36,649 nucleotides of DNA from Gemmatimonadales bacterium (GTDB lineage Bacteria; Gemmatimonadota; Gemmatimonadetes; Longimicrobiales; Gaopeijiaceae). The notes under the pieces are model-generated. The model was not told the DNA's origin and did not search any database. It saw only the letters and a list, made by a program, of their open reading frames with translations. The translations under genes were made by a program, and so were the position numbers. This document shows, piece after piece, positions 12,182 through 16,318 of the stretch; positions within the stretch are counted from its first letter, which is position 1, and every line of letters starts with the position of its first letter. The stretch spans positions 1-36,649 of the forward strand of contig REEG01000160.1 of the NCBI GenBank assembly GCA_007695195.1, read 5' to 3'.

Positions 12182-13051
12182 TCACCGAAACAGGGCCCGC
12201 TCCAGTTCGGCCTGGAAGAAGCGGAATTCGTCGTCCGCCCCCAGGCGCCATCCGGCCTCCATGAAGGCCGGCAGGGTGTAGCCGTCGGCAACGAAGTCCC
12301 CGGCCATCTCCACCGCGAAGAGTTCGTAGCCCGGGGTGCGTCCCTCTTCGGCGTCCTCGGCCCAGCGCAGCGCTTCGACGCGGAGGGGCCGGCCCTCGCC
12401 GTCCACCTCCAGGACGGCTTCCACCACCTCCGTTCCCACGGGGAAGTGGAAGCGGGCCCGGTGCTCGTCCACCGCCTCCCAACGCAGGCCTTCGGGGGCG
12501 AAGGGCGACCCGGGGATGAGGGTGGCGGGCACCAGCACCGCCTCCATTCCCAGCCGGCCGGCTGCCGAGCGCGTCACCCCCTCGCCTTCGGCCCGGACCA
12601 CCGGCACGAACCCGAACAACTCCCAGCGCATCTCACCGGTCCCGTCGCTGTACCGGTCGAAGCCCCGGATCCGGGCCAGTCCACCCCCGGCCACGGCCAG
12701 CCAGATGAAGCCGTGGGGGGGCGCCAGGATCTGCCGGGCATCCAGGGACAGGGGCTCGTCGTCGGGAACCAGGGTCAGCGATCCGGTCATGTCCAACTCC
12801 ACCGCCCCCGCCAGCGGCGTTCCCGGTGCGATGGCGTGGAGGAAGAAGCGCCGGGCCGGCTCCGGCAGGTCGGCCACCATGGCCGCGTCGAACCGGACTT
12901 CGGGGACACCGCTCCCCACCTCCTGGAGCGCCAGCCAGGCCCGGTCGAGCTCGGCGTCGCCTCCACCGCAGGCAACGGGCAGGAGAAGGGGGAGGACGAG
13001 GAGGGGAAGCCGAGCAGATCGAGGCAGTCGAAGAAACGAGGGAAAGGACAT
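12182..13051 (-). CDS. DUF6544/DUF6920-like lipoprotein
   Basis: The start at the ATG at 13051 gives 289 residues with a compact signal peptide and lipobox (LLPVAC, Cys28). The open frame continues upstream to 13702 but is then antisense to the hydrolase-barrel gene, so it is not coding. The mature protein contains VADLPEPARRFFLHAIAPGT near 62-82, GSLTLVPDDEPLSLDARQIL and the WLAVAGGGLARIRGFDRYSDGTG region, ending with FQAELERALFR. This pattern resembles proteins annotated DUF6544 or DUF6920, in which a conserved LPEPVRRY motif precedes a beta-rich domain; the function is unknown. It is divergent from the hydrolase-barrel fusion, with a 156-base gap, so the two may share control. Confidence 0.75.
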   Translation of the reverse strand: MSFPSFLRLPRSARLPLLVLPLLLPVACGGGDAELDRAWLALQEVGSGVPEVRFDAAMVADLPEPARRFFLHAIAPGTPLAGAVELDMTGSLTLVPDDEPLSLDARQILAPPHGFIWLAVAGGGLARIRGFDRYSDGTGEMRWELFGFVPVVRAEGEGVTRSAAGRLGMEAVLVPATLIPGSPFAPEGLRWEAVDEHRARFHFPVGTEVVEAVLEVDGEGRPLRVEALRWAEDAEEGRTPGYELFAVEMAGDFVADGYTLPAFMEAGWRLGADDEFRFFQAELERALFR

Positions 13052-13207
13052 GGGCGGTGTGAAAAGCCGTGAGTTATGGAAGGCCGGATCGTATCTTGAT
13101 ATCGATGAGGGTAGGAGGGCGCTCTCCGGCGATGGCCCGTTCGGGGCTCCGCCCTTCCCTTCCACCACCAACAAGATAGCCGGACCCGGCTCGCGGAGGA
13201 CCCGGCC

Positions 13208-15385
13208 ATGCACCTCCCCCTGCTCTTCGTCCTGACCCCTTTCTCTTCCCGCCGGCCACGAGTGCGGGGGCGGGCAGCGCTGGCCTCCCTTCCCCCGGCG
13301 CTGATCCTGGGACTCGCCACCGGCTGCCTGGCCCACACCCCGCCCATGAGCCTTCCTGACGGCCGACCCGATCCGGAGGGTATCGCCACCCTGGAAGCGG
13401 TGGAGATCGGCGGCGTGGAGCAGTGGCTCCTCATCCGGGGGCGACGCGCGGACGCCCCCCTCCTCCTCCGCCTCCATGGGGGGCCCGGAGCGGCGGACAT
13501 GCCCGTGACCCGTCACTTCAACGGAGCGCTGGAAGATCACTTCGTGGTGGTGAGTTGGGATCAGCGGGGCGCCGGGAAGTCCAACCCCCGGAGCTTTGAT
13601 CCCACAACCATGACCTTCGAGCGCTTCGTGGAGGATGGCCACGAACTGACCCGCTACCTGAAAGAGCGGTTCGGGCGCGACCGCATCTTCCTCATGGGTC
13701 ACTCATGGGGGACCCAACTGGGCCTCCGGCTCATCCACCGGTATCCGGACGATTACGCCGGCTACATCGGAGTCAGCCAATCGGTGGACCAGCGGCGGGC
13801 GGTGGTGCTGGCGCACCGGTGGCTCTCCGGGCGCATCGCCGAGGCAGGAGACGAGACCACGGGCCGGGAGCTGGCGGCGCTGGGCACCCCTCCCTACCGG
13901 GACCACGGTGACTTCGTCGCCTTTGTGGGGCTTCTGGACCGGTACGGAGCCAACATGGATGTGGGGTTCGGCACCCTGGCGTGGGTGGCGGTGACCGCCC
14001 CGGAGTACTCGGCGCGGGATCTCCTTCGGTGGCTTCGGGGAGCTCGCCGCGGAAGCGGCCCCATGTGGGACGAGCCCGCGTACCGGGACTTCGATGCCCT
14101 GACGGGCCTGGCGGAGCTCAGTGTCCCGAGCCACTTCTTCATGGGGGCCCGGGACCTGAACACCCCTCTCGCGCTGGCGCAGGAGTACGCGGATTCACTG
14201 GAGGATCCAGGGATGGCCCGGGTCGTGACCTTCGAGGAATCGGGGCACGTCCCCTTCATGGCCGAGCCGGAGCGGTTTCACCGGGAGGTGGTGGAGGCGC
14301 TCCTGGAGCCGAGCCTGGAACCGCGCATGGAGCCGAGCCTGGAGCCGAGCCTGGAACCGGAACCCGGCGCTCTCCATGACCCCCGGCCCCCTCGTGGGCT
14401 GAGCTGGGCCGCCCTGCCATACGTCTTCTACTCACCCGACACCCGGTTCGGCGGCGGCGTGTACGGCGGACTCTATCGCCCTCTGGCCCCGGACCTCCCC
14501 GCGTCCTCCGCCGAGGCGGCCTTCACCGTCACGGCCCGGCAGCAGTACATCGTCGAGACCTACCCGTCTCTTCACCTTCCCGGGGGACTCCGCGCCGATG
14601 CCACGGTGCAGGCCCGGGAGTATCCCAATCGGTTCTACGGTGTGGGGCCGAGGGTGGACGGATCGGCGGAGGATTTCACAACCCGCACCCTGGCGGCCCG
14701 CACTCGTCTCCAGTGGGAGGTCCTGCCCGGGTTCAGGGTCGGGCCGCAGGCGTCCCTTCGGTGGGAACGGCTCACCGACGCCGAGCCGGGGAGCTTCATG
14801 GAGGACGGACTCCTGGCCGGCATCCGACCCGACGTCCGGTCCGGGCGGTGGGTGGGGCTCGGTGTGCTGGCCACCCAGGACTCCAGGAACCACCTCCTGA
14901 ATCCCCGGTCGGGCCAGTATGTGGAGCTCTCCTTCGTCGGACGGCCCACATTCCTGGGGAGCACCACCGAATACGGCATCTTCACGGCGGAGGTGCGACG
15001 GTTCCACCCTGTGGGATCCGGGTCCACCGTGGGGGTGCAGGCGTTCGTGGCTCGGGCCACCGGTGAGGTGCCGCCCCTGCTCCTCCCTGCCCTGGGCGGC
15101 CGGGCCCAACTGCGAGGGTATCCGGATGGGGGCCTCAGGGACCGGGCCCTGGCAGCGGCCCAGGTGGAGTGGCGAGTGCCGCTTCGTAGACGCCTCAACG
15201 GCGCCCTCTTCGCGGAGGTGGGTCAGGTGGCCCCGGGGCTGAGCCATCTGGATTGGGGAGATGCCGCGGTTTCGGCGGGAGGGGGCCTTCGGTTCATCCT
15301 GGGCGCCGGAGCGCCCATCCGCGTCGATCTGGCTCACGGCCGGCGCGGTACCGGCCTCTACATGACCATCGGCCACCCGTTCTGA
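13208..15385 (+). CDS. Alpha/beta-hydrolase fused to an Omp85/BamA-type outer-membrane barrel
   Basis: This 725-residue open frame joins two complete domains. Residues 1-40 are a signal sequence with a lipobox-like LATGC (Cys40). Residues about 55-365 are a proline-iminopeptidase-like alpha/beta-hydrolase with oxyanion loop HGGPG (90-94), nucleophile GHSWG (Ser166), Asp316 (GARDLNTP) and His347 (SGHVPF); the triad is intact. Residues 366-385 are a LEPS-type repeat linker. Residues about 395-725 are a barrel with the Omp85 loop-6 signature LRGY (635-638), WRVPL and FAEVGQV, and a C-terminal Phe. No POTRA domain is visible. The ATG has GGAGGA 7 bases upstream. The layout parallels PlpD-like type Vd autotransporters with the patatin replaced, so a surface-displayed or secreted esterase or peptidase is inferred. 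A sequencing artefact joining two genes is the main alternative. Confidence 0.9.
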   Translation: MHLPLLFVLTPFSSRRPRVRGRAALASLPPALILGLATGCLAHTPPMSLPDGRPDPEGIATLEAVEIGGVEQWLLIRGRRADAPLLLRLHGGPGAADMPVTRHFNGALEDHFVVVSWDQRGAGKSNPRSFDPTTMTFERFVEDGHELTRYLKERFGRDRIFLMGHSWGTQLGLRLIHRYPDDYAGYIGVSQSVDQRRAVVLAHRWLSGRIAEAGDETTGRELAALGTPPYRDHGDFVAFVGLLDRYGANMDVGFGTLAWVAVTAPEYSARDLLRWLRGARRGSGPMWDEPAYRDFDALTGLAELSVPSHFFMGARDLNTPLALAQEYADSLEDPGMARVVTFEESGHVPFMAEPERFHREVVEALLEPSLEPRMEPSLEPSLEPEPGALHDPRPPRGLSWAALPYVFYSPDTRFGGGVYGGLYRPLAPDLPASSAEAAFTVTARQQYIVETYPSLHLPGGLRADATVQAREYPNRFYGVGPRVDGSAEDFTTRTLAARTRLQWEVLPGFRVGPQASLRWERLTDAEPGSFMEDGLLAGIRPDVRSGRWVGLGVLATQDSRNHLLNPRSGQYVELSFVGRPTFLGSTTEYGIFTAEVRRFHPVGSGSTVGVQAFVARATGEVPPLLLPALGGRAQLRGYPDGGLRDRALAAAQVEWRVPLRRRLNGALFAEVGQVAPGLSHLDWGDAAVSAGGGLRFILGAGAPIRVDLAHGRRGTGLYMTIGHPF
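14303..14362 (+). repeat. Five-copy 12-base coding repeat in the hydrolase-barrel linker
   Basis: Five in-frame copies of ctggagccgagc (with minor changes) occur back to back and encode LEPS-LEPR-MEPS-LEPS-LEPE at residues 366-385, exactly between the hydrolase and barrel domains. Being a multiple of three, copy-number change would lengthen or shorten the linker without a frameshift. Confidence 0.9.
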
Positions 15386-15399
15386 CCGCCGCCCTTCCC

Positions 15400-15425
15400 G
15401 GCCGCCGCCGACCCGACGGGCGGCC
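15400..15425. terminator. Hairpin between convergent genes
   Basis: GGCCGCC (15400-15406) and GGCGGCC (15419-15425) form a 7-base stem with a 12-base loop, 14 bases after the stop of the hydrolase-barrel gene and before the convergent gene ending at 15467. A smaller stem CTGCGC/GCGCAG with a gttttcg loop follows. There is no T tract, so this is a modest call. Confidence 0.4.
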
Positions 15426-15466
15426 ACCGGGTTCCTGCGCGTTTTCGGCGCAGAGGCGAGATCTCG

Positions 15467-16318
15467 TCAGCGCAGGGGTCCGATCTCATCCCGGAGCGCC
15501 ATGGGACGGTCCAGCACTTCCTTCAGCACCACGGCCTTTCGCAAGTCGTCCACGCTTCCGGTCTCCAGAAGCCGCGTGTAGGGCGTTCCCGCTCCTCCAC
15601 GAACCCGTCCACGCGGCAGCAGACTGTCCTCGTCATCGCCCATGGATAGAGGTGACGAAACCTCAGTGAGATCCCCCTTGGAGATATCCTCCAGCTTACC
15701 CCAGGGCTCTTCCAGCTGGCGGTAGACCTCGGCCTCTCCGGCCTCCACCGCAGCCGTCCAACGATCCGACACCTCCCGTTCCTCGATCCCTTCCATCCAG
15801 CGGGATGAGCGTCGAGTGGCCGCCTCCGGCTCCTCCACGGCTGCAGGAGGCTGGCCCTCCAGGGTGGACCGGGACATGCGGTCGCCTGGAGTCGGCGCCG
15901 GGATCCGGGGGCCCGGATCCGGGTGCGGGGCCGATCCCTCCGGTGTCTGACCCGTGAGAATCGCCCAGAGGTCCGCCGGCACCATGCTCTCGGCGCTCTC
16001 CCGGTCCCGGTCCTGCCCGCGGGCCGGATCGGGGGCCGCAGGCGTCACATCCGGCTCGGAGGTGTCCATGCGCCGGTAGCGCTCCATATCGGACTCTCCT
16101 CCAGCCGAGGCCCGCCGGTAACGGTCAGTGCCGTCCTCCACCGCCACCGGCGGGCCACCACGACCCTGCTGGCCCTCCTGCGCCCACTCGTCCCCCGCGT
16201 CCTCGGCCTCCATCTCGTCCATACGGCGCTGCCGCTTCTTCTTCCGTCCCACGGCGTCGATGACCGACGCCGCCATGAACAGGAGGATGAAGAGGATGGT
16301 TACGAAGCCTTCTTCCAC
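15467..16318 (-). CDS. Membrane-anchored disordered protein of the nfeD-floA group
   Basis: The 283-residue protein has one N-terminal membrane segment (residues about 4-23) followed by a basic cluster (GRKKKRQRR), so the bulk should face the cytoplasm. The middle, roughly 30-230, is charged and Pro-rich with no recognisable fold. The end is ordered-looking: TRLLETGSVDDLRKAVVLKE continuing with VLDRPMALR. A similar short tail (x-LSEILGPPxALR) occurs in many otherwise unrelated membrane-anchored bacterial proteins, as far as I recall. It lies 13 bases behind floA, so it is almost certainly in the same operon and may be a FloA partner or cargo. No function is known to me. Confidence 0.75.
   Translation of the reverse strand: MEEGFVTILFILLFMAASVIDAVGRKKKRQRRMDEMEAEDAGDEWAQEGQQGRGGPPVAVEDGTDRYRRASAGGESDMERYRRMDTSEPDVTPAAPDPARGQDRDRESAESMVPADLWAILTGQTPEGSAPHPDPGPRIPAPTPGDRMSRSTLEGQPPAAVEEPEAATRRSSRWMEGIEEREVSDRWTAAVEAGEAEVYRQLEEPWGKLEDISKGDLTEVSSPLSMGDDEDSLLPRGRVRGGAGTPYTRLLETGSVDDLRKAVVLKEVLDRPMALRDEIGPLR

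Follow-up and report, generated by a model that had tools for sequence, protein, structure and literature searches.

A single open reading frame on the forward strand of the window (the whole stretch of DNA analysed, 36,649 nucleotides of a Gemmatimonadales contig) encodes a serine hydrolase of the alpha/beta fold followed by an outer-membrane barrel of the Omp85 type without POTRA domains. Enzyme-Omp85 fusions are already known, and it is the combination with an alpha/beta hydrolase in a POTRA-less protein that is new among the literature searched. As the first-pass annotation of this DNA had supposed, no family with a proline-iminopeptidase-like passenger and no POTRA surfaced in the open-access literature searched, nor was a description of any alpha/beta hydrolase-Omp85 fusion found in it. 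On present evidence the protein is probably a periplasmic serine hydrolase that is held on the inner face of the outer membrane by both of its ends.

An alpha/beta hydrolase and a POTRA-less Omp85 barrel in one frame

The gene had been read as a one-frame fusion of signal sequence, hydrolase, linker and barrel, and this reading was confirmed at the same coordinates, with both Pfam domains present (Table 1). The length of the frame alone is little proof, because the DNA is GC-rich and the strand opposite the gene contains spurious frames as long as 506 aa. The ATG at 13208 was preferred as the start, as it is preceded by a GGAGG sequence and the other candidate start, GTG 13262, is not. A search of 12900-15700 for promoter-like sites gave no hit. 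The divergent neighbour (12182-13057, reverse strand), whose start lies ~150 nt from the fusion gene, codes for a DUF6544/DUF6920 protein with a lipoprotein-like signal. The signal sequence is present as first annotated, but the conserved lipobox at its end had been overlooked. Residues C40, A42, H43, T44 and P45 are invariant across the aligned fusions, and the lipobox reads VSGC (canonical) and SASGC in the orthologous fusions L004 and L003, respectively, and TSGC in the hydrolase-less copy L008 (all described below), thus overall [VAT][ST]GC. Position -3 of the lipobox, where Leu is the commonest residue, holds A (twice), V or T.

Table 1. Features of the fusion gene and of its product (positions in the window)
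Feature	Position	Strand	Remarks
GGAGG ribosome-binding-like site	13195..13199	+	8 nt 5' of ATG 13208
Whole fusion gene	13208..15385	+	Single open frame, 725 aa; Abhydrolase_1 and Omp85 Pfam matches
Signal peptide, residues 1-39	13208..13324	+	R-rich n-region, hydrophobic stretch; read from sequence
Putative lipobox Cys40 (LATG/C)	13325..13327	+	GC-[LF]-A-H-T-P kept in fusions
Alpha/beta hydrolase domain, residues ~58-368	13379..14311	+	Profile, sequence and fold matches
HGGPG oxyanion loop, residues 90-94	13475..13489	+	Invariant in fusions and two Myxococcota relatives
Catalytic Ser166 in GHSWG	13703..13705	+	Invariant in aligned relatives
Catalytic Asp316	14153..14155	+	Invariant in aligned relatives
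Catalytic His347	14246..14248	+	Invariant in aligned relatives
12-nt tandem array (EPSLEP repeat)	14302-14359	+	Missing from orthologous fusions
Linker, residues 369-402	14312..14413	+	34 residues; most of the 12-nt tandem array inside
POTRA-less Omp85 barrel, residues ~403-725	14414..15382	+	Profile matches, phylum-wide alignment
LRGY loop-6 motif, residues 635-638	15110..15121	+	R636, G637 invariant in 31 barrels
C-terminal Phe725 of beta-signal	15380..15382	+	Invariant in 31 barrels

The N-terminal domain matches Abhydrolase_1 (PF00561, residues 84-353, E 8.7e-16) with 58.7 bits against a gathering score of 25.8, and this score, the Ser-Asp-His triad, the oxyanion loop and the fold place it in the alpha/beta hydrolase superfamily. 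The complete triad and the HGGPG loop noted at first reading were found to be invariant in the three fusions, and Ser166, Asp316 and His347 are also conserved in two free-standing relatives from Myxococcota. A model of residues 58-370 matched solved alpha/beta hydrolases with Z scores of 19-21, the best match being 1j1i (Z 20.9, rmsd 3.4, 235 residues aligned). The phospholipase 6i8w (Z 19.9, rmsd 3.2, 240 aligned) and the proline iminopeptidase-related 2yys (Z 19.4, rmsd 4.0, 263 aligned) were among the other matches; proline iminopeptidases are thus nearly tied with many alpha/beta hydrolases, so that the fold is uninformative on the substrate. By sequence, the nearest solved structures are the proline iminopeptidases 2yys and 3wmr, and a protein annotated as ybaC is 32% identical to the hydrolase. 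The fused enzyme has the same fold, HGGPG loop and triad as proline iminopeptidases (S33) and B. subtilis YbaC-type hydrolases, but differs from them in being fused to a barrel and apparently tethered to the membrane. The earlier description of the passenger as proline-iminopeptidase-like is supported, but the cut-off of the proline iminopeptidase-family profile TIGR01250 was not reached (74.6 versus 167.65 bits). Since, in addition, the cap region aligns poorly, iminopeptidase specificity is not supported.

The C-terminal domain matches the Omp85 profile (PF01103, residues 551-710, E 6.8e-15) with 55.8 bits against a curated cut-off of 24. The orthologous fusions score 52.3 (L003) and 47.8 bits (L004), and all 14 barrel relatives matched the same profile, which assigns the domain to the Omp85 superfamily. 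The cut-off of 200 bits of the NCBIfam model NF047779 (Omp85_fam) was reached neither by the whole protein (69.6 bits) nor by the barrel alone (73.5 bits). The LRGY loop-6 signature and the terminal Phe that had been pointed out earlier held in an alignment of 31 barrels from across the phylum, in which R636, G637 and F725 are invariant. A profile built from 14 barrels matched the solved 16-stranded barrel of TamA (8us4, E 2.5e-5; 4n74, E 1.4e-4) as well as the POTRA protein 9ccg (E 1.3e-15). Both the length of ~323 residues and the way in which the profile aligns to TamA are compatible with 16 strands, the predicted structures of the barrel (pLDDT ~22-45; 31.6 for the barrel alone, with no usable barrel) being too poor to count them.

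The absence of POTRA domains, also claimed by the first-pass annotation, was borne out, as none was found among the Pfam or NCBIfam matches at E<=1. Only ~34 residues separate the end of the hydrolase (~368) from the position at which free-standing barrels start (~402), which leaves no room for a cryptic POTRA; the latter was ruled out by the missing profile match and by this short gap. A conserved Y-x-P-[ED]-T sequence (~408-412) marks the start of the free-standing barrels and coincides with the end of the linker.

A sequencing frameshift, a missed stop codon or a chimeric contig might have joined two genes artificially: the genomes are draft assemblies, a 12-nt tandem array sits in the linker of the window, and two draft copies, L008 and L071, have internal deletions. 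Such an artefact is nevertheless highly improbable and has largely been refuted already, as the same in-frame junction, with different linkers, occurs in three independent assemblies from three genera, both halves are constrained and the codon-phase GC shows no break across the linker. A frame error or missed stop in the linker was excluded because the linkers of L003 and L004 lack the repeat and yet are read through in frame. The repeat linker described earlier is thus present in the window, but the EPSLEP repeat is confined to this genome, and linker identity between the fusions is 19-41%.

Relatives of the fusion and of its halves

A search of related genomes returned the same fusion, whole and in one frame, in two of them, G013 (L003, 1477-3561, 694 aa) and G027 (L004, 1483-3558, 691 aa), which represent two further genera of the family (53% identity). 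Cys40 with the adjacent AHTP, the HGGPG loop, the triad, LRGY and Phe725 align in all three fusions. Between L003 and L004, dN/dS is 0.19 in the hydrolase, 0.80 in the linker and 0.26 in the barrel, and hence both halves are under purifying selection and the linker is without constraint. The full fusion was detected in 3 of the 121 genomes of the family, all three drafts, and in none of the other genomes among 395 sampled across the phylum; these surveys scored few candidates per genome, so that rare copies may be missed. A plasmid survey gave hydrolase-only matches among the matches listed, none of them covering 80% of the query, and scans of viral contigs yielded no barrel relatives. A distant relative of the hydrolase was seen at 4785-5681 of L108, an IMG/VR contig classed as viral.

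Both halves also exist as separate genes. At E<=1e-14 the barrel family was found in 44 of the 395 genomes of the phylum, fusions included, and most of the relatives inspected consist of a signal peptide only, followed by the barrel. The hydrolase family is widespread. Of its nearest free-standing copies, L005, L007, L032 and L033 have a membrane segment at the N-terminus and L071, from G108, has a lipobox; in most of them a similar TP motif and a GG-[VML]-[ED]-Q stretch come after the anchor. As these closest kin have a membrane segment or a lipobox, tethering to the membrane is probably ancestral for the enzyme. Among free-standing hydrolases, L071 (G108, contig C202, 1327-2151) is the closest to the fused enzyme, and the separate barrel gene of the same genome, L039, has its own signal peptide and lies on another contig. 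L071 is without ~75 residues, including the HGGPG loop, which may have been lost from the genome itself or only in a collapsed assembly. The first-pass annotation had held that orthologues present as two genes would speak against the fusion; the halves are indeed separate in some relatives, such as G108, but they occupy unlinked loci and are not a split copy of the fusion gene.

A further copy, L008 (1312-2520, 402 aa), comes from the draft genome G002, which is assigned to the genus of the window. Its hydrolase is missing and its barrel intact, the lipobox and the first ~30 residues being followed directly by the barrel, the constraint on which is not looser (w 0.19-0.21 versus L003 and L004). 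A fault in the assembly might account for the deletion, but the divergence of the N-terminal stretch that was kept speaks for an old event.

In barrel trees, the fused barrels form one group with the G002 remnant and a fragment at a contig end in G025, this grouping (86/63) not being strongly supported. In the hydrolase tree, the fused hydrolases group with the lipobox-bearing free-standing copy of G108 (97/96), and a topology that unites the three fusions in one clade was not rejected (p-AU 0.24). A gene for a membrane-tethered periplasmic hydrolase may have been joined to a free-standing gene for a POTRA-less barrel in one bacterial family. The simplest, though not a proven, scenario is that this happened once and that losses followed. 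The window barrel is 49% identical to that of G002, which in turn is ~70% identical to those of G013 and G027, so that the window copy is the more distant from G002 despite the shared genus, which suggests transfer or an old duplication.

Location of the enzyme and known enzyme-barrel systems

The most probable layout can be outlined as follows. The fusion protein would be exported by Sec, signal peptidase II would cleave before Cys40, the cysteine would be lipidated and the BAM machinery would insert the C-terminal Omp85-type barrel, while the hydrolase would stay folded in the periplasm directly beneath the barrel, where it might cleave an ester or amide located in the inner leaflet or at its surface. 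Such a layout would be comparable to that of PlpD in its 2024 re-description, although the hydrolase is unrelated and a POTRA is missing. A position of the enzyme under the membrane is favoured because the lipobox is conserved, because the free-standing kin of the hydrolase appear to be membrane-tethered, because G002 keeps a constrained barrel without passenger and because the enzyme domain of PlpD resides in the periplasm (PMC11116518). Points against it are the -3 residues of the lipobox, none of which is Leu, and the linker, whose ~34 residues could in principle span the lumen of a barrel.

Some autotransporters that carry enzymes at the surface are lipidated, such as NalP and SphB1. The hydrolase could likewise be passed to the surface by the barrel or by a barrel-BAM intermediate and stay attached there, perhaps by its lipid, in line with an enzyme-linker-barrel order like that of classical autotransporters, with a flexible and unconstrained linker and with a weak match to the classical (type Va) autotransporter beta-domain, PF03797 (residues 447-523, E 0.01), that lies below the cut-off (16.1 versus 26 bits). 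We consider this quite unlikely, as the barrel is of the Omp85 type and PlpD, the model for such passengers, keeps its enzyme domain in the periplasm, the authors of the PlpD study having argued that a small pore is an unfavourable route for an enzyme domain that is already folded (PMC11116518). Moreover, the G002 barrel is kept without passenger under a constraint that is not looser, and the free-standing kin of the enzyme seem to be tethered to membranes. The specific proposal of the first-pass annotation, a type Vd-like autotransporter displaying the enzyme at the surface, was not supported: no patatin family was found among the Pfam and NCBIfam matches at E<=1, the POTRA is absent as well, and the reported periplasmic location of the PlpD enzyme domain has overturned the type Vd topology for its own prototype (PMC11116518), so that transport of the enzyme domain to the surface or medium is disputed even there. 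PlpD and FplA nevertheless resemble the present protein, in that a single chain carries an N-terminal serine hydrolase of alpha/beta fold and a C-terminal Omp85 barrel. They differ in having a patatin with a Ser-Asp dyad instead of a classical Ser-Asp-His alpha/beta hydrolase, and one POTRA where the fusion has none. The lipobox of the fusion does not feature in the description of PlpD (PMC11116518), the comparison being with that description and not a direct one.

Other known systems share single elements with the fusion. Enzyme-Omp85 fusions and POTRA-less barrels were already catalogued by Heinz and Lithgow in 2014, and an alpha/beta hydrolase fusion is not among their ten subfamilies (PMC4104836). 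Their non-POTRA architectures include the 'Metallo' Omp85 proteins (PF00149 plus barrel), in which an enzyme domain likewise accompanies the barrel but is a different enzyme. The 'Metallo' barrel is close to that of the 'noNterm' group, which was proposed as a possible ancestor that gained the metallo enzyme (PMC4104836). The barrel of the fusion groups with such 'noNterm' proteins, which have only a signal peptide ahead of the barrel; the whole protein differs from them in that a putatively lipidated hydrolase (58-368) precedes it. TamL and the 'Lipo' Omp85 proteins of Bacteroidota also combine an N-terminal lipid anchor with an Omp85 barrel (PMC12045153; PMC4104836), but have three POTRAs and no enzyme, whereas the fusion has an enzyme and no POTRA.

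As Omp85 subfamilies act mostly in assembly or translocation (PMC4104836), the barrel could itself be an assembly or transport protein, BamA/TamA-like or lipid-handling, to which the hydrolase was added for processing or regulating the substrate of the barrel. Members of the barrel family stand alone across the phylum and the hydrolase-less barrel of G002 is still conserved, as expected from such a role. We nevertheless regard this role as unlikely, since POTRAs, the substrate binders of characterised Omp85 proteins, are absent and the free-standing POTRA-less barrels are without assigned function; it is partly compatible with a tethered hydrolase and not fully exclusive of it.

Tentatively, and with less assurance than for the periplasmic position of the enzyme, the fusion may represent an undescribed Omp85 subfamily, in which a lipidated alpha/beta hydrolase is anchored at both ends and the POTRA-less barrel feeds or exposes its substrate, such barrels being scaffolds for envelope enzymes and not secretion or assembly machines. 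The move of PlpD to the periplasm raised the question of whether enzyme-Omp85 fusions are a general class of envelope enzymes tethered to the outer membrane. The fusion is an independent example, in which the hydrolase is unrelated, the POTRA is missing and a lipid anchor is probable. Hydrolase and barrel each encoded separately, the two joined in one chain, and a barrel that has lost its enzyme together form a natural comparison set. With it, direct tests become feasible of what POTRA-less Omp85 barrels do, for which no function was known at the time of the 2014 catalogue.

Gene neighbourhoods and further Omp85-barrel proteins

Hydrolase genes adjoin some of the barrels (in G002, G027, G108 and G199), and as the remaining neighbourhoods are mixed, no enrichment is claimed. 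On contig C401 of G002 (L111), a gene for an N-terminally membrane-anchored alpha/beta hydrolase begins at the stop codon of the barrel, and on contig C325 of G108 (L114), a POTRA-less barrel is followed, 145 nt downstream on the same strand, by a gene for a lipoprotein X-Pro dipeptidyl-peptidase (S15). At L123 (G398), L126 (G242) and L151 (G247), genes for POTRA-less Omp85 barrels follow one another in tandem, in twos or threes. Finally, L050, L054 and L059, and similarly L042, L043, L046 and L047, encode Omp85-barrel proteins of ~750-960 aa in the same bacterial family; their N-terminal part, of ~450 residues, is without Pfam match, and GD(W/R)DR and RDRD motifs are conserved in several of them.
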